Source: Flavobacteriia bacterium
GTDB taxonomy: Bacteria > Bacteroidota > Bacteroidia > Flavobacteriales_D > Crocinitomicaceae
Assembly: GCA_016183815.1 (NCBI GenBank)
Contig: JACPDW010000031.1
Location: forward strand, 1-44,301
Length of the DNA stretch: 44,301 bases
Direction: 5' to 3'
Shown here in pieces: positions 745-7,740 of the stretch; positions within the stretch are counted from its first letter, which is position 1; every line of letters starts with the position of its first letter. Under the pieces are notes generated by a model. It was not told where the DNA came from. It saw nothing but the letters and a program-made list of their open reading frames with translations, and did not search any database. The position numbers and the translations under genes were made by a program.

Positions 745-2127
745 ATGAGTAAAAAAATGAAAACATTAACTGAACCATTCAAAATTAAAATGGTTGAGCC
801 GTTAAAAGTTACTACTGAAGAATACAGAAAATCAGCCCTTAAAAAAGCAAATTACAATCCTTTTTTATTGATTTCAGATGATGTTTTTATCGATTTACTT
901 ACCGATAGTGGTACTGGTGCGATGAGTGAACAACAATGGAGTGCAATGATTCAAGGTGATGAAAGTTATGCAGGTGCAAGAAGTTGGTTGCGTTTAGAAA
1001 AAGTAGTTCGTGACTTAACAGGAATGCCTTTTATTTTGCCTACTCATCAAGGTCGTGCTGCAGAAAGAATTTTATATTCTATTTTAGGTGGAAAAGGTAA
1101 GACTTTTATTAGCAATACGCACTTTGATACCACAAGAGCTAATATTGAATTTACCTCAGCTGAGGCCGTAGATTTAGTTTGTAAAGAAGCAACAGACAAT
1201 CAATCCGATTATCCTTTTAAAGGAAATATGGACATTGAAAGATTCCAACAGGAAATAAGCAAAAGAGGAAAAGAAAATATCGCAGCGGTGATTATGACGG
1301 TTACTAATAATTCTTCTGGTGGTCAGCCGGTTAGTTTAGAAAACCTTAAAAAAGTTAAACAAATATGTGTTGAAAATAATTTACTTTTTGTTTTAGACGG
1401 TTGTAGGATAGCTGAAAATAGTTATTTTATCAGACACAAAGAAAAAGGGTATGAAGACAAAAGTTACAAACAAATAGCTCAAGAAATTTTTGCTTTGTCA
1501 GATGCTTTTGTGATGAGTGCTAAAAAAGATGGATTAGTAAATATGGGTGGTTTATTAACCTTAAGAAATGAAGATTTAGCACTTCAATGTAAAAATTTAT
1601 TGATTATCTCAGAAGGATTTACGACTTACGGCGGTTTATCTGGAAGAGATATGGAAGCACTTGCAGTCGGTTTACAAGAAGTTTTTGAAGACGATTATCT
1701 GCATTATAGAATAAGAAGTACTGCTTATCTTGGTGAACATCTGAAAGCAATGGGAATTCCAGTTGTTTGGCCAATTGGTGGTCATGCCGTGTATGTTGAC
1801 GCTAAAAAATTATACGACCATATACCTGTTGAACAATATCCAGGACAAGCATTAGTTTGTGATTTATATATCAAAGGTGGTCTAAGAACAGTTGAAATAG
1901 GCAGTGTGATGTTCGGAAAGTATGACCAGGAGGGAAAATTGATTCCAGCAGAAAAGGAATTAGTTCGTTTAGCCATTCCAAGAAGAGTTTACACTCAAAG
2001 TCATATCGATTACGTTATTGAAGTTTTTGAAGACATTCTTACTGATAAAAAACAAGCAAAAGGATATAAAATCACGTATGAACCACCTTTTTTAAGACAT
2101 TTTACAGCTCATTTCTCACCCCTTTAG
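745..2127 (+). CDS. tnaA: Tryptophanase (tryptophan indole-lyase)
   Basis: A PLP-dependent beta-eliminating lyase that converts L-tryptophan to indole, pyruvate and ammonia in the cytoplasm. At 460 residues it is near the family length (E. coli 471). The PLP site MSAKKD lies at 257-262, with Lys261 the expected Schiff-base lysine. Three positions separate tryptophanase from tyrosine phenol-lyase, and all read as tryptophanase: Asp128 in HFDTT (Thr in TPL), Ile385 in VEIG (Arg in TPL), and His452 in LRHFTA (Phe in TPL). The ATG at 745 is used; an ATG at 757 (MKTLTEPF) is a possible alternative. It is first in an operon and only 7 bases upstream of the acyl-CoA synthetase gene, which could help turn the pyruvate product into acetate and ATP via acetyl-CoA. 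The operon also ends with pdxH, which makes its cofactor. Confidence 0.95.
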   Translation: MSKKMKTLTEPFKIKMVEPLKVTTEEYRKSALKKANYNPFLLISDDVFIDLLTDSGTGAMSEQQWSAMIQGDESYAGARSWLRLEKVVRDLTGMPFILPTHQGRAAERILYSILGGKGKTFISNTHFDTTRANIEFTSAEAVDLVCKEATDNQSDYPFKGNMDIERFQQEISKRGKENIAAVIMTVTNNSSGGQPVSLENLKKVKQICVENNLLFVLDGCRIAENSYFIRHKEKGYEDKSYKQIAQEIFALSDAFVMSAKKDGLVNMGGLLTLRNEDLALQCKNLLIISEGFTTYGGLSGRDMEALAVGLQEVFEDDYLHYRIRSTAYLGEHLKAMGIPVVWPIGGHAVYVDAKKLYDHIPVEQYPGQALVCDLYIKGGLRTVEIGSVMFGKYDQEGKLIPAEKELVRLAIPRRVYTQSHIDYVIEVFEDILTDKKQAKGYKITYEPPFLRHFTAHFSPL

Positions 2128-2134
2128 CTAATTA

Positions 2135-4183
2135 ATGATAGCAAAAGAGCTGTTTGATCCAAAGAGCATTGTTGTCGTTGGAGCTTCTGATAATAGGAGT
2201 AAACCTGGTGGCAAAGTGTTGTATAACCTCATTGAAAATAATTTTGAAGGGGAAATTTTTGCTGTAAACCCAAAAAGAGTTGACCTTGATGGAATTAAAT
2301 ATTATTCAACAGTTGAAGACTTGCCTTTTGTTGATTTAGCCATCATTGCCATTCCTGCTGAACTTTGTTTACAAACCTGCGAAGTTTTAGCTCTTCAAAA
2401 AAAAACGAAAGCATTTATTATTTTTTCTGCGGGCTTTTCTGAAGTCGGCAATTTTGAGTTAGAAAATAAATTAAGAGAACTTATTCAATCAGTAAATGGT
2501 GTATTGATTGGTCCAAATTGTATTGGAAGTATTCAAAAAAAATATAAAGGAGTTTTTACCTCACCAATTCCAACTTATTACGATGAAGGATGCGAATTGA
2601 TTTCCAGTTCTGGTGCAACTGCTGTATTTATAATGGAAGCAGCGATAACGATTGGATTAAAATTTTCAAATATCTATTCAATTGGAAATGGTTTACAATG
2701 TGGAGCTGAAGAGATTTTGGAACACATGGATGAATCATTTGTAGAAGGGCAAAGTTCAAAAATTAAACTGCTTTATCTTGAACAAATTAGAAATCCATTT
2801 AAGTTTTTAAAACACGCTTCCTCTCTGATATCAAAAGGTTGTAAAATTGCTGCCATCAAATCAGGGATTTCTGAAGAGGGGAGTAGAGCTGCTAGTTCAC
2901 ATACAGGAGCGCTGGCGAGTTCGGACATTGTTGTTCGGGCTCTTTTTAAAAAATGTGGAATTGTCTATTGTAGCAGTAGAGAAGAACTGATAAGTGTTGC
3001 TGGTGTGTTTCAAACAAACGAAATTAAAGGGAAAAATTTTGCTGTAATCACTCATGCCGGTGGATCTGCTGTGATGCTTACTGACACTCTTACCACCAAT
3101 GGACTAAATGTTCCATCTATTGATTCTGAAAAGACTAAAGATTTATTGAAAAAGCTTCATCATGGCTCTTCAGTGAGTAATCCATTTGATTTTTTGGCTA
3201 CTGGAACAGCTGAACATTTAGGTGAAATTATTGATTTTTGTGAAAATGAAACCCTTTTTGATGCCATGGTTGTGGTGTTTGGAAGTCCAGGTTTGTTTAA
3301 TGTGAAAGATGTTTACCTCTGTCTTTTAGAAAAAATGAAAACCTGCAAAAAACCAATTTTCACTGTCCTTCCTTCTGTAATAAATGCTAAAAATGAAATA
3401 GAATTTTTTTTATCTAAAGGTAAAATTAACTTTTCTGATGAAGTAGTATTAGGTCATGCTTTAGCCAATGTGTATTCTGCAAAAAATAATTATTTAAGAA
3501 ATAAAATTCAATTGACTGCGATGGATTTTGCTGGTATTAGAAATATTATTAACGCTAGTGACAATCAATGGCTTCAAAATAAAGAAATTAATGAATTAAT
3601 GCAAGCGGCTGGAATTGAACTTCCATTTTCTGTTGAAATCAAAGAGGAAAAAGAAATTTCACTTTTTTATACTAAATTTGCGTTTCCTTTGGTAATGAAA
3701 GTACAAGGAGTTGTTCATAAAACAGAAGTGAATGGCGTACGTTTTCCTATTCAAAGTGAAAATGAAATGTTATTACATTTTAAAGATTTAATGCAGATAC
3801 AAGGGGCTACATCGGTTTTAATTCAACCTTTTCTTAAAGGTGAAGAATTGTATTGTGGCGCTATTAAACAAGGGGATTTTGGTCATCTTGTATTAGCTGG
3901 TTTAGGTGGTGTTTTTTTGGAATTGTTACACGATACTTCAGGTGCTTTAGCTCCTATTGATAAAGAAGAAGCAAAAGAAATGTTGACAAAATTAAAAGCT
4001 TATCCAATTATTAAGGGATATAGAAATAAAAAAGGAATAAACGAGGAGTCATATATTGATTTAATCACCAGATTAGCCGCTTTGGTTTATGTTGTCCCTG
4101 AAATTGAAGAAATAGATTTAAACCCAATCATAGCTACAGAAGATAAACTTTATCCTGTAGATATTAGAATTAGAATACAGTAA
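2135..4183 (+). CDS. ADP-forming acyl-CoA (acetyl-CoA) synthetase, fused alpha-beta type
   Basis: Predicted to convert acyl-CoA + ADP + phosphate to acid + CoA + ATP (EC 6.2.1.13 type), conserving energy by substrate-level phosphorylation. The order of domains is a CoA-binding Rossmann domain (residues 5-130, starting DPKSIVVVGASDN), a ligase-CoA flavodoxin-like domain containing SSSGATAVF near 152 and the phosphohistidine motif SHTGAL with His256, a middle linker, and a C-terminal ATP-grasp domain from about 470. The ATP-grasp part has HKTEVNGV with His528, matching the second phosphohistidine known in the archaeal beta subunit. 682 residues fits the one-chain form. It ends in a TAATG overlap with the next gene. 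The substrate could be acetyl-CoA or aryl-acetyl-CoA; the tryptophanase neighbour does not decide this. Confidence 0.85.
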   Translation: MIAKELFDPKSIVVVGASDNRSKPGGKVLYNLIENNFEGEIFAVNPKRVDLDGIKYYSTVEDLPFVDLAIIAIPAELCLQTCEVLALQKKTKAFIIFSAGFSEVGNFELENKLRELIQSVNGVLIGPNCIGSIQKKYKGVFTSPIPTYYDEGCELISSSGATAVFIMEAAITIGLKFSNIYSIGNGLQCGAEEILEHMDESFVEGQSSKIKLLYLEQIRNPFKFLKHASSLISKGCKIAAIKSGISEEGSRAASSHTGALASSDIVVRALFKKCGIVYCSSREELISVAGVFQTNEIKGKNFAVITHAGGSAVMLTDTLTTNGLNVPSIDSEKTKDLLKKLHHGSSVSNPFDFLATGTAEHLGEIIDFCENETLFDAMVVVFGSPGLFNVKDVYLCLLEKMKTCKKPIFTVLPSVINAKNEIEFFLSKGKINFSDEVVLGHALANVYSAKNNYLRNKIQLTAMDFAGIRNIINASDNQWLQNKEINELMQAAGIELPFSVEIKEEKEISLFYTKFAFPLVMKVQGVVHKTEVNGVRFPIQSENEMLLHFKDLMQIQGATSVLIQPFLKGEELYCGAIKQGDFGHLVLAGLGGVFLELLHDTSGALAPIDKEEAKEMLTKLKAYPIIKGYRNKKGINEESYIDLITRLAALVYVVPEIEEIDLNPIIATEDKLYPVDIRIRIQ

Positions 4184-4608
4184 TGCAAGTAAAACCCATC
4201 TATATTTTTGTTCTTCTTAGTGTTTTGTTTTTAACCTACTCTTCAGTATTGTACCTATCTGATGAAAAAGAAATTATAATTCAAAGGGCTACTAAAAAAG
4301 ATTTTAGTGCTGAAGGTAAATTGATCTTTCAAAAATACAATTGTCAGGCCTGCCATCAAATCTACTCTTTAGGTGGTTATCTTGGTCCAGACCTAACCAA
4401 TGTATATTCAAAATACAATAATGAAGACGTGATAAAAGCATTTATGAAGGGTGGGTTTAAACAAATGCCTTCCTTTAAATTGACATCCTATGAAGAAAGT
4501 GCTTTAATTCAATTTTTTAAAAAAATGGATAAAACAGGAACGGCGGATATACGAAATTTTGAATTTCAAGCAGATGGAATGATTAAACCAAAACAAGAAA
4601 AAAGATGA
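4183..4608 (+). CDS. NorC-like membrane-anchored cytochrome c
   Basis: A mono-heme cytochrome c expected to pass electrons to the membrane subunit encoded next. Residues 7-25 are a single membrane anchor, with the rest periplasmic. Heme attachment is by CQACH (Cys54, Cys57, His58), and Met95 in KQMPSF is the likely distal axial ligand. The stretch GGYLGPDLTNVY resembles the NorC signature after the heme site. 141 residues is close to NorC. It overlaps the upstream gene by one base (TAATG) and the downstream gene by four (ATGA), showing translational coupling. NorC of canonical NO reductase is the nearest family I can name; the partner has unusual ligands (next entry), so nitric oxide as the substrate is not established. 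I therefore give no symbol. Confidence 0.82.
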   Translation: MQVKPIYIFVLLSVLFLTYSSVLYLSDEKEIIIQRATKKDFSAEGKLIFQKYNCQACHQIYSLGGYLGPDLTNVYSKYNNEDVIKAFMKGGFKQMPSFKLTSYEESALIQFFKKMDKTGTADIRNFEFQADGMIKPKQEKR

Positions 4609-5939
4609 CAAATCCAGGTAAAAAATTTGCTATTTTGGCTTTATTCATGTTATCCATTGCAATTATTGCTGGATTATTGGCATCAATTAGCTATTTGTCT
4701 CCCGAATTTCTTAAAGAAAAAATAGGATTTTCTGTATTGAGACCGGTTCATGTGTCAGCTGTATATTTCTGGATTTCTTTGAGTGCAACCGCTGGCGTTT
4801 ATAGTGCTTTGTGGAACAATAACATGAGTTCCTTTACTTCAAAAATGTCCTATTTCCATTTTGTTTTAATAGCCATATCTGCACTTGGAATTTTAATAAG
4901 TTATTTCTTCAAAAATTTTGGAGGAAGGGAATATTGGGAGTATAATCCTTATTGGGCTATTCCAGTTTTAATTTCTTGGGTTTTATTTTTGATCAATTAC
5001 CTTCACTCGGCTTTAAAAATCAAAAACTGGCCCGTTTATTATTGGATGTGGTTTACTGGAATACTTTTTTTTATCTTTATTTTTATTGAAAATTATTTAT
5101 GGCTAATCCCTTCAATAAGAGAAAGTTTTATTAAAGATTTAACTATCCAATGGAAAGTGAATGGCTCCATTGTTGGAGCTTACAACCAATTGATCTACGC
5201 TACAGCATTTTATCTTATGGATAAAATTACTGATAATAAAGCTCATCAAGTAGGACACAAAAAAATAGTATTTGCAATGTATTTTTTGGGACTAGCTAAT
5301 TTGATGTTTAATTGGAGTCATCATATTTATACTTTACCTAGTGATATGTATGTGAAATATATCGGTTATTTAGTAAGTATGACCGAATGGGTGCTGTTTT
5401 TAAGAACAATATTTCTTTGGAAAAAAACTATTGATGAATTTAAGATTAATGCTCATTATTTTCCTTATCGTTTTTTGATTGCCTCAGAATTTTGGGTATT
5501 TATCAACCTTTTTCAAGCATTATTAATGTCTATCCCTGCAATAAACGCCTATACACATGGAACTCATGTTACAGTGGCACATGCTATGGGAACCACTATC
5601 GGCATCAATACTATGATTCTTTTAGCTGCTCTGTATATGTTTTTTGATGGGAAGAACGATCAAGATTCTCATTCACATAGAAGGTACTTAAAAAATAATT
5701 TTTGGTTTCTTCAAATCTCCTTATTGTTTTTCTTTTTAAGTTTAGATATATCAGGTGTTTTAAAAGGTTTATGGCAAATGGATAAACACGCATTGCCCTT
5801 TTCCGATATGATGGCAAATCTTCATCCATGGTTTATTTTGATGTTTATCTCTGGTTGTGGATTGTTTATCTCACTTGGAATATATTGTTATTACTTATTA
5901 TCAGTTTTACTAAAAAGAATTACTAATTATTCAATATAA
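4605..5939 (+). CDS. Divergent NorB-like heme-copper reductase subunit I
   Basis: A 444-residue polytopic protein with about 12 membrane helices, the length of NorB. NOR-family landmarks are RPVH (His49, a low-spin heme ligand in helix II), GREYWE at 107-112 (NorB GREFLE, calcium/propionate region), adjacent His239-His240 on helix VII, and Glu261 in SMTEW (NorB SALEP). Other expected ligands look changed by my manual alignment. Helix VI, normally H-x3-E-G-x2-E, reads NGSIVGAYN (186-194), giving His to Asn, Glu to Val and Glu to Asn. Helix X, normally HGH, reads HAM (326-328), so the second low-spin heme ligand would be Met328. No norQ or norD maturation genes are adjacent. It could be a specialised NO reductase, another NOR-superfamily enzyme, or a non-catalytic electron carrier. 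Family membership is firm; the activity is not. Confidence 0.75.
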   Translation: MTNPGKKFAILALFMLSIAIIAGLLASISYLSPEFLKEKIGFSVLRPVHVSAVYFWISLSATAGVYSALWNNNMSSFTSKMSYFHFVLIAISALGILISYFFKNFGGREYWEYNPYWAIPVLISWVLFLINYLHSALKIKNWPVYYWMWFTGILFFIFIFIENYLWLIPSIRESFIKDLTIQWKVNGSIVGAYNQLIYATAFYLMDKITDNKAHQVGHKKIVFAMYFLGLANLMFNWSHHIYTLPSDMYVKYIGYLVSMTEWVLFLRTIFLWKKTIDEFKINAHYFPYRFLIASEFWVFINLFQALLMSIPAINAYTHGTHVTVAHAMGTTIGINTMILLAALYMFFDGKNDQDSHSHRRYLKNNFWFLQISLLFFFLSLDISGVLKGLWQMDKHALPFSDMMANLHPWFILMFISGCGLFISLGIYCYYLLSVLLKRITNYSI

Positions 5940-5941
5940 AA

Positions 5942-7120
5942 ATGGAAAATAAATCAGTTAATTTCGATGATGTAAGCATTGCTTTTAGTTACAAAAGTGA
6001 TGCAGAATTGAAACGTATGTTTTTTGTATATCGTTTGATTCAAAAACCTTTTATGGTTAAATTTTTAACAAGGGTTGCCTTTTGGATAATTAAATACAAA
6101 CTTCCATTTAAGTTTCTTTTAAAAAACACCATGTTTCAAGTGTTTTGTGCTGGTGTTGATTTAAATGAAACTAAAAAAACTATGGCTCATTTAAAAAAAT
6201 ATGACGTTTATACTGTTTTAGATTATGTTGCTGAAGGGGATAAATCAGAAGTCGGTTTTAAGAAAAACCTTCAAACGATAATAAAAAATATCGACTGTGT
6301 GAAAAATGAAAGTCCAAATGCTTTTGTAGGTGTAAAAATCTCTGGTTTAGAAGATGTTGAATATCTAAAAACTTTCAAACAAGCAGATTTTGTTGAAAAA
6401 TTTAAGACAGAACATCGACTTCAACTTTTACATGAAAGAGTTGAAAAAATTTGTCAAGAAGGTGATAAAAATAATGTGAAAGTTTATTTTGATGCTGAAG
6501 AAAGAAATACTCAAGATATTTTCGATTATCTAATTGAAGAAATGATGAGAAAATACAACCGTCAAAAAGCAGTGGTGTACAATACTCTTCAAATGTATTT
6601 AAAAGACCGAATTGATTACTTAAATAAATGCATCTCTGAAGCAAAAAACGAACACTTTTTTATCGGAATGAAACTCGTTCGTGGTGCTTATGTTGAAAAA
6701 GAAAGAGAAGAAGCCAAAAAACTAGGTCTTGAAAGTCCAGTTTTTGATACCAAACAAGGAACTGACGATTCTTTTAATCATGCTGTTCAAATCTGTCTTG
6801 AAAACCATGATTTAGTCGCAACTTGTATTGCTACTCACAACATGGAAAGTATTCAAAAAGCGATAATTTTGATACATGAATATCAGATAAATGATCATGA
6901 GAATAAAGTATTTTTCTCACAATTGTACGGAATGAGTGATAATTTAACCTTTAATTTAGCCAAAAATAAATACAATTCATCTAAATATGTTCCTTATGGT
7001 GAAGTAGAAAAAGCCATTCCATATTTGTTACGAAGAGCTGAAGAGAATACTTCAATTGAAGGTCAAGTTAGTAGAGAGTTTGAAATGTTAAAACAAGAAA
7101 AAAATAGACGTAAAATATAA
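5942..7120 (+). CDS. putA: Proline dehydrogenase (monofunctional, FAD-dependent)
   Basis: Oxidises L-proline to pyrroline-5-carboxylate, passing electrons through FAD to the quinone pool at the membrane surface. The TIM-barrel PRODH signatures are visible: MKLVRGAYVEKER around 243-255, the SQLYGMSDNLTF segment, and the C-terminal substrate-binding motif YLLRRAEENT, whose paired Arg contact the proline carboxylate. At 392 residues it is the single-domain form without the P5C dehydrogenase half of enteric PutA. It starts two bases after the NorB-like gene and overlaps pdxH by one base (TAATG). Electrons from proline entering the quinone pool could feed the respiratory-type norCB-like pair upstream; that link is inference. 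Confidence 0.9.
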   Translation: MENKSVNFDDVSIAFSYKSDAELKRMFFVYRLIQKPFMVKFLTRVAFWIIKYKLPFKFLLKNTMFQVFCAGVDLNETKKTMAHLKKYDVYTVLDYVAEGDKSEVGFKKNLQTIIKNIDCVKNESPNAFVGVKISGLEDVEYLKTFKQADFVEKFKTEHRLQLLHERVEKICQEGDKNNVKVYFDAEERNTQDIFDYLIEEMMRKYNRQKAVVYNTLQMYLKDRIDYLNKCISEAKNEHFFIGMKLVRGAYVEKEREEAKKLGLESPVFDTKQGTDDSFNHAVQICLENHDLVATCIATHNMESIQKAIILIHEYQINDHENKVFFSQLYGMSDNLTFNLAKNKYNSSKYVPYGEVEKAIPYLLRRAEENTSIEGQVSREFEMLKQEKNRRKI

Positions 7121-7740
7121 TGGAACACGACCATAGTGATTTTAATAAAGAGATAGATTTTCAATCAAAAGAGAATCCGCTTTTATGGTTTAAAGATTTA
7201 TATCAAGATGCTATTTTAAAAAATTGTACATCTCCTAATGTCATGGTCGTTTCTACTTCTACATTATCTCATCGAATAAGTTCACGAGTTGTTTATTTAA
7301 GAGAAATTCTTGAAGAAGGATTGTGTTTTTATACAAACTACAACAGCAGAAAAGGGAAAACTTTAGAAGAAAATCCTCTTTGTTCAGCACTGTTTTTTTG
7401 GCAGGAATTAGAGATTCAAGTTCGAGTTGAAGGAATTTGTGAAAAATTACCTTCTGAAATGTCTGATATTTATTTTTCATCTCGTCCACGTTTAAACCAG
7501 TTGAATGCTTGGGCTAGCAAACAAAGTGAAAGCATCAATTCTCGTAATGATTTGGAAAAAGCAATGGAATATTATGATAAAAAATTTCCTCAAATTGTTC
7601 CACGACCAGATTTCTGGGGTGGATTTTTAATTAAACCAAACTATTTTGAATTTTGGAAAGGACGTTTAGGTCGTTTACATGACCGATTTTCCTACGAATT
7701 AATCGATAATAATTGGCAAATACAACGTCTAGCCCCATAA
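7120..7740 (+). CDS. pdxH: Pyridoxine/pyridoxamine 5'-phosphate oxidase
   Basis: FMN-dependent oxidase that forms pyridoxal 5'-phosphate from PNP or PMP in the cytoplasm. Recognisable blocks are SSRVVYLRE, FYTNYNSRKG (FMN phosphate binding), the AWASKQS block, PRPDFWGGF, and the C-terminal FWKGRLGRLHDR followed by RLAP, where the Arg/His residues bind the substrate. 206 residues is close to the usual 210-220. It is the last gene of the operon and is convergent with batD after only five bases; no hairpin terminator is visible in that gap. Tryptophanase, first in the same operon, is PLP-dependent. Confidence 0.95.
   Translation: MEHDHSDFNKEIDFQSKENPLLWFKDLYQDAILKNCTSPNVMVVSTSTLSHRISSRVVYLREILEEGLCFYTNYNSRKGKTLEENPLCSALFFWQELEIQVRVEGICEKLPSEMSDIYFSSRPRLNQLNAWASKQSESINSRNDLEKAMEYYDKKFPQIVPRPDFWGGFLIKPNYFEFWKGRLGRLHDRFSYELIDNNWQIQRLAP

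Follow-up and report, generated by a model that had tools for sequence, protein, structure and literature searches.

NorCB-like proteins of Bacteroidota with a methionine at the low-spin heme position and no conserved metal ligand in helix VI

The window analysed here is a stretch of 44,301 nucleotides from a Flavobacteriia bacterium of the Crocinitomicaceae (assembly GCA_016183815.1, contig JACPDW010000031.1, positions 1-44,301). It carries a pair of genes resembling norC and norB of the cytochrome c-dependent nitric oxide (NO) reductase, cNOR. In the family to which the NorB-like protein belongs, four of the six superfamily histidines are kept in all 76 sequences aligned, the helix VI histidine is gone and the second histidine of the low-spin heme is replaced by methionine. 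We put at about even the chance that the pair forms a NorC-NorB-like complex, a member of a deep family of the NO reductase (NOR)/cbb3 type, that is fed by cytochrome c and reduces NO at a rebuilt site.

The NorB-like gene occupies positions 4605..5939 of the forward strand, as do all features given below, with an ATG at 4605, a stop codon at 5937-5939 and 444 encoded residues; across these positions the opposite strand is full of stop codons. The protein matches Pfam COX1 across residues 5-417 (E value 3.9e-37) and its AlphaFold2 model (pLDDT 89.1, pTM 0.91) has the 12-helix COX1-type fold. The preceding gene (4183..4608) overlaps the start of the NorB-like gene by four bases and encodes a membrane-anchored c-type cytochrome of 141 residues, the NorC-like subunit, which carries the motif CQACHQ followed by GGYLGPDLT. 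The heme c motif Cys54-x-x-Cys57-His58 (4342..4356) is present in 80 of 80 NorC-like sequences, which were chosen by the CxxCHQ pattern with three canonical NorC sequences set aside. Met95 (4465..4467), the presumed sixth ligand of heme c, lies outside that pattern and is likewise found in 80 of 80. A NorC-like gene cluster occurs in 79 of 83 family loci.

Residues were counted over 76 different aligned sequences including that from the window, with a minimum pairwise identity of 38% and a mean of 53%. All the landmarks named in the sequence-only reading are in place. His49 of helix II (4749..4751), the predicted first axial ligand of low-spin heme b, is invariant. So are His239 and His240 of helix VII (5319..5324), the two ligands that would remain to the non-heme metal, and Glu261 (5385..5387), the equivalent of cNOR Glu280 in the alignment and a candidate third metal ligand. 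In helix X the sequence His326-Ala-Met328 (5580..5588) presents the predicted proximal histidine of heme b3 and the methionine at the low-spin-heme position, both found in 76 of 76. The GREYWE motif, residues 107-112 (4923..4940), aligns Glu112 with the last glutamate of cNOR GRKFLE. Further invariant positions are Glu112, Glu162, Gln182, Trp183, Lys184, Gly187, Gly191, Asn194, Asn232, Asn236, Ser258 and His318.

The methionine is secure, because no gap is needed to align the helix X motif with canonical cNOR, for which a protein of the same phylum (L021, 375 bits to Pseudomonas aeruginosa NorB) served as the alignment reference. It also occupies this position in 143 of 143 frames of at least 300 residues with FGGRE(Y/F), redundancy included, which is far beyond chance. 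Family sequences were gathered by the peptide patterns FGGREYWE and [NK]WPVYxWM, so the conservation of Met328 is not an effect of selection. The replacement of the low-spin-heme histidine, proposed earlier from the window's protein, extends to all the family members aligned. Six conserved histidines are a signature of heme-copper enzymes, as set out in the relevant passages of PMC3413370. The NorB-like family fails it and by that rule is a relative of the superfamily, not a member; by homology, on the COX1 match and the 12-helix fold, the protein qualifies.

Helix VI is the second altered element. The segment QWKVNGSIVGAYNQ (residues 182-195; 5148..5189), which contains N186-G-S-I-V190-G-A-Y-N194, has no metal ligand. 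In cNOR the FeB ligands are His207 and Glu211. At the corresponding positions the family has, among the 76 sequences, N in 63, Y in 10, A in 2 and S in 1 at position 186, and V in 73 with T, I and S once each at position 190; Asn194, aligned with Glu215, is invariant. The loss of one histidine and two glutamates, as first proposed, therefore stands, whereas a role for Asn186 as a substitute ligand finds no backing in the spread of residues at that position. The expected conservation within one clade holds for Met328, Val190 and Asn194 in a clade with full support; it does not extend to Asn186, and there is no clade-wide Asn/Val/Asn set. No invariant new histidine takes the place of the lost one, since the only other columns with histidine in the majority are 318, which is histidine in cNOR too, and 321 (72 of 76), which is leucine in the cNOR rows. 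One divergent member with tyrosine at position 186 (L006) lies downstream of a Crp-type regulator, and its NorB-like gene is followed by a further cytochrome c gene and the start of a NarG-like gene, labelled by eye.

The register of helix VI is less secure than the alignment of helix X. MAFFT and hhalign alignments to cNOR place Asn186, Val190 and Asn194 at His207, Glu211 and Glu215, while HMMER against 3o0r and hhalign against cbb3 put Gly187 at the position of the histidine, one residue later. When a model of helices I-VI (pLDDT 88.2) was superposed on structures of cNOR (two) and cbb3 (three), Asn186 fell at the histidine position (Z 16.7-21.6, root-mean-square deviation 2.2-2.4 over 200-203 aligned residues); residue 208 pairs with 229 in 3o0r, 216 in 4xyd, 229 in 3mk7, 286 in 6xkw and 293 in 9g83. 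This register is read from range ends alone, with helix VI assumed to be free of gaps and entry numbers to equal the sequence index. The cNOR and cbb3 histidine numbers were counted from alignments, and the register reading covers the cbb3 rows other than 9g6b and 8smr. With what we take to be the histidine numbers of the bovine, bo3 and qNOR enzymes, A-family rows would place the register at 187 and some qNOR rows at 190. A register anchored on Trp183, with Gly187 at the histidine, was dropped as first choice after the cNOR and cbb3 superposition had given Asn186. Either register leaves neither histidine nor glutamate at the metal-ligand positions, and no other histidine comes to the metal position in any of the alignments checked (MAFFT, hhalign, HMMER and superposition).

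How is the family related to known enzymes? A maximum-likelihood tree of 57 rows, unrooted and with 27 chosen family members, places these 27 on one side of a branch with support of 100/99; cNOR, NO dismutase (NOD), qNOR and cbb3 each form one group apart from it. The stem of the NorB-like family has a length of 3.83, compared with 2.85 for the side with cNOR, qNOR and NOD and 3.37 for the cbb3 side. With a stem no shorter than the other two, the family is not a recent offshoot of cNOR. Two sequences in the tree, L191 (genome G329) and L193 (genome G060), belong to a branch of C-type heme-copper proteins with HSH and GTHHFIF that is sister to cbb3. An initial label for them as C-like without the tyrosine was wrong, as the six histidines and a tyrosine six residues before the HH pair are kept, and we read them as oxygen-reductase-like.

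When solved structures are searched with a 76-row profile of the family, cNOR comes top (4xyd, E value 1.7e-23; 3o0r, 9.3e-17; the best cbb3 entry, 8.5e-14). Fold Z scores are 35.6 and 34.4 to the two cNOR structures and 35.7-37.3 to cbb3. Overall the family is about equally distant from the two. With cNOR, as represented by P. aeruginosa 3o0r and Roseobacter denitrificans 4xyd, it shares the two-subunit layout with a NorC c-type cytochrome, the gene for the heme c subunit directly upstream (4183-4608 in the window), the 12-helix NorB fold, His49, GRxxxE, the HH pair, the equivalent of Glu280 and the heme b3 histidine. It differs in being only 18-19% identical, in lacking the helix VI histidine and both glutamates, in having methionine for the low-spin-heme histidine, and in forming a separate clade on a long stem. 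NorQ and NorD are also largely missing from its surroundings. Their absence near the window's pair had been noted before and proves general, with NorQ in the flanks of just four of 83 loci, three of which (L026, L029 and L051) also hold canonical cNOR; there, canonical norCB, norQ and norD stand shortly before the variant pair.

Other NOR types of the superfamily with changed active-site residues are eNOR, sNOR, gNOR, bNOR (CuANOR) and nNOR. The changed residue is Q in eNOR, N in sNOR, D in gNOR and N in CuANOR according to Table A4 of PMC8756737, which also covers cNOR and qNOR, and in the part of PMC11388526 that treats them, bNOR, eNOR and the proposed sNOR, gNOR and nNOR are related to B-family enzymes. 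The types eNOR, sNOR, gNOR and bNOR keep the helix VI histidine that the NorB-like family has lost, and all five differ from it in kinship, the family being kin to the C-type/cNOR branch; for nNOR the comparison is by its B-family kinship alone. Such proteins co-occur with the NorB-like family in some genomes: a changed residue at what we take to be the relevant position, four after the helix VI histidine, was seen in the sNOR-like L192, L202 and L203 (H-x3-N) and the eNOR-like L194 and L195 (H-x3-Q). In open-licence papers of PubMed Central we found no description of the family or of a His/Met low-spin heme in a NOR; preprints and Murali et al. PNAS 2024 lie outside that scope and the family may be named there. 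On sequence, the proteins appear to be deeply branching NOR/cbb3-type relatives in Bacteroidota that fit none of the NOR-family descriptions compared and may already bear a name.

The extent of the family was assessed in a species-level genome collection, where a scan yielded 385 pattern matches, 365 of them encoding a relative (tblastn, E value up to 1e-3). Among the best 80 of these 365 relatives, 77 are titled as Bacteroidota lineages, two (L076 and L093) simply as 'bacterium' and one (L090) as Thermoanaerobaculia, the last being an 11.6-kb contig of a metagenome-assembled genome and possibly misbinned; the occurrence of the family outside Bacteroidota is not settled. Isolates among these 80 include Flavobacterium antarcticum, F. 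orientale, F. proteolyticum and Planktosalinus lacus. No NorB-like relative was found on viral contigs or plasmids. In a phylum sample 8 of 395 genomes carry the family (E value 1e-60), and in a class sample 79 of 396 (E value < 1e-100; 80 rows representing 79 genomes); the two samples differ in make-up and neither fraction is a true frequency. Two of the 395 genomes in the phylum sample are carriers from other classes, both with a partial gene at a contig end. Residues were read in those class-sample carriers from which loci were extracted.

Across genomes, the family is associated with NosZ, which exceeds the cut-off in 70 of 79 carriers as opposed to 20 of 80 non-carriers (Fisher p = 8e-17), the controls being 80 hand-picked, non-random genomes of 317 non-carriers, 19 of them without a match in the family scan. 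Within 15 shared families the figures are 42 of 44 and 8 of 40 (Cochran-Mantel-Haenszel p = 1.7e-10). NosZ is on the same contig as the NorB-like gene in 19 of the 70 and starts within 25 kb of it in 18. The window's own genome (3.24 Mb, 44 contigs, 100% complete) encodes NosZ on another contig. Its only further COX1 protein carries HPEVY and is of the oxygen-reductase type; profile searches at an E value of 0.001 revealed no NirK, NirS or canonical NOR in it. Known NORs are scarce among the 79 carriers, with cNOR in four, qNOR in one and NOD in eight, and none of the three was found in 66 of 79, using a two-sequence cNOR profile that very distant NORs may escape.

NirK is over the cut-off in 14 of the 79 carriers, with G123 a near miss and G260 a split gene. 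Five of the 14 also have cNOR, qNOR or NOD and nine have none of these three. Among the nine, G083, G289 and G390 have sNOR-like proteins, with eNOR-like proteins as well in G083 and G289. In G060, G126, G230, G238, G329 and G383, NirK and NosZ are accompanied by other PF00115 proteins over the cut-off that are all of the oxygen-reductase type, a set that falls to four (G126, G230, G238 and G383) if L191 and L193 are not oxygen-reductase-like. A flavodiiron search in G000, G126, G230, G238 and G383 gave one match over the cut-off, a 234-residue frame in G238.

A path for electrons and substrate can be proposed from these features, in which heme loading, the metal and the reaction are predictions. 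Electrons from a periplasmic c-type cytochrome would enter at heme c of the NorC-like subunit, held by His58 and Met95; the next stop would be a low-spin heme b with His49 and Met328 as ligands, and the last would be heme b3, bound by His326. A methionine ligand usually raises the potential of a heme and Met328 should do so for the predicted low-spin heme b. NO would most likely be reduced to N2O at heme b3, and N2O might then be converted to N2 by NosZ of the same cell. The non-heme metal would still be bound by His239 and His240, with Glu261 the probable third ligand and positions left open for NO. This site cannot be that of cNOR, because helix VI offers no conserved ligand; were it unused, however, one would not expect the His239/His240 pair to be kept. 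According to part of PMC3431322, FeB and Glu280 of cNOR are separated by a water, and Glu211, Glu280 and Glu215 make up one hydrophilic pocket. Two of these three glutamates are missing in the NorB-like family.

The full proposal, that the Bacteroidota family reduces NO at heme b3 and a two-His-one-Glu metal site with a His/Met low-spin heme feeding it, is tentative, and in that specific form possible though on balance unlikely. We know of no heme-copper enzyme with such a metal site or with a His/Met low-spin heme. If it is correct, many bacteria that reduce N2O and are at present counted as having no NO reductase would prove to have one in this family. The family may be an enzyme of the nitrogen cycle that has been overlooked. 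Were it active on NO, it would show that the binuclear centre can take a rebuilt form that does not depend on helix VI, and estimates of NO and N2O turnover drawn from genomes would gain a component that they now lack. In any event, a large and well-kept family exists without two of the six heme-copper histidines.

Several observations weigh against NO reduction by the pair. The cNOR enzyme depends on its helix VI; loss of Glu211 probably destroys FeB coordination, according to the relevant section of PMC3431322, a simulation study of cNOR. NirK is not over the cut-off in 65 of the 79 carriers and a full NirS was found in just one; with a nitrite reductase so rarely present, the NO need not be made by the carrier cell itself. 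Four carriers also have canonical cNOR, which lies close by in three of 83 loci, and eight have NOD, so the family is not a simple replacement for known NORs. Of the 20 NosZ-positive non-carriers, only three have cNOR (one a fragment) and one has qNOR, so NosZ-bearing bacteria often lack these known kinds of NOR in any case. Finally, a single-sequence query against solved structures puts cbb3 first (6xkw, E value 3e-10, with 4xyd third at 2.2e-9), and in NCBIfam the top match, ccoN, scores far below its cut-off.

Foremost among the alternatives, though doubtful in our judgement, is that the binuclear centre is dead, that the heme pair alone is of importance and that the protein serves a NosZ or NO-defence module by binding NO or carrying electrons, as a sensor, an NO store or a conduit. 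A helix VI devoid of conserved ligands across 76 sequences would be expected of such a protein, its constant companion is NosZ and not a nitrite reductase, and in some carriers canonical NOR or NOD is encoded as well. A dead site would drift, however, and His239, His240 and Glu261 are invariant; the NorC-like partner and its heme c ligands are also kept. If the family does not act on NO, there is still a conserved heme protein associated with the N2O module to explain.

An improbable second alternative is a dismutase-like reaction, in which two NO molecules would yield N2 and O2, or another product, at the altered site with little need for electrons from outside. NODs were cited in the sequence-only reading as NorB relatives with substituted ligands, and NOD, with examples in Methylomirabilis (DAMO_2434/2437), strain HdN1 and Muricauda, resembles the family in being a NOR relative with a changed metal site and in occurring also in NosZ-bearing Bacteroidota. 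Kinship with NOD is not supported. As stated in the passages of PMC3413370 on NOD, its changes are His to Asn and Glu to Gln, and it has neither heme c nor a proper quinol site. The long NOR relatives that we read as NOD neighbours carry GISHN and FSTLQ in 11 of 11 sequences (two identical), and those read in helices VI and X keep the helix VI histidine and both helix X histidines. NOD has a chain of the long qNOR type that carries HN and Gln, whereas the NorB-like protein has 444 residues, the HH pair and Glu261 in 76 of 76 and a heme c partner, and the tree separates the two with full support. The genes do lie near one another: seven of the eight carriers with NOD have it on the contig of the NorB-like gene, 1.3-4.8 kb away in six and 17 kb away in one, and it appears in the flanks of three of 83 loci (L079, L096 and L099, some of which may be genomes already counted). 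Proximity can be taken to favour a dismutase, but their joint presence in a cluster points to separate functions. These Bacteroidota NOD genes (L138-L145, with L079, L096 and L099), mostly 1-5 kb from the variant NorCB, may belong to a combined NO module.

Reversed flow, in which NO bound at heme b3 would be oxidised to nitrite and its electrons would travel by way of the high-potential His/Met heme to cytochrome c, is very improbable. The nitrite/NO couple is high, as the potential of a Met-ligated heme usually is, and the NorC-like partner could accept the electrons. A setting beside NosZ and anaerobic genes needs an electron acceptor, however, not more reduced cytochrome c, and we know of no relative that oxidises NO. 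That the protein is a cbb3-type cytochrome c oxidase is least credible of all, given that, despite the shared fold, a similar tree distance, the slightly highest fold Z scores and the ranking by single-sequence searches, cbb3 has all six histidines and the catalytic helix VII tyrosine six residues before the HH pair, where the family has Leu233 (at least 90% Leu) and lacks the third Cu ligand and the low-spin-heme histidine, and true cbb3 genes are present in the same genomes.

The neighbourhoods of 83 loci, with flanks of up to 8 kb, were labelled mostly by eye and the counts, which have no random-gene baseline, are to be read as such. An Rrf2 regulator is present in 41, and 48 of 49 Rrf2 proteins near the family have a spaced three-cysteine pattern. 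DUF2249, ScdA_N or hemerythrin proteins occur in 19 loci and genes of anaerobic ribonucleotide reductase (nrd) in 16; 18 loci have a nos gene of some kind and eight a globin. When nos genes, Rrf2, DUF2249, Ric, hemerythrin, globin and NorQ are taken together, at least one is present at 52 of the 83 loci. A protein of about 600 residues with FHIPVMGLAYTID near its start (L088:631-2439, reverse strand, and 29 further loci) recurs in 30 of 83 neighbourhoods; the one example scanned had no Pfam match at an E value of 1e-4. Two further recurrent membrane-type proteins of 405-430 residues lie near the pair (L095:2539-3828, reverse strand; L084:13978-15192, forward strand), one with a weak COX1 match (E value 1.6e-6, below the cut-off) and the other with none in Pfam at 1e-4.

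In the window the pair sits in a tight same-strand run that comprises genes for a tryptophanase/tyrosine phenol-lyase family protein (745..2127), an ADP-forming acyl-CoA synthetase type protein (2135..4183), which lies just upstream and overlaps the start of the NorC-like gene, the two subunits, a proline dehydrogenase (5942..7120) just downstream of the NorB-like gene, and PdxH. Like neighbours, again labelled by eye, occur in 45, 12 and 22 of 83 loci for the lyase family, synthetase and dehydrogenase genes, respectively. The linked genes of amino-acid catabolism weakly suggest a respiratory role beyond detoxification alone. The stretch 745-7740 is operon-like, joining amino-acid catabolic genes to the NorCB-like pair, and parts of this arrangement recur at other loci.

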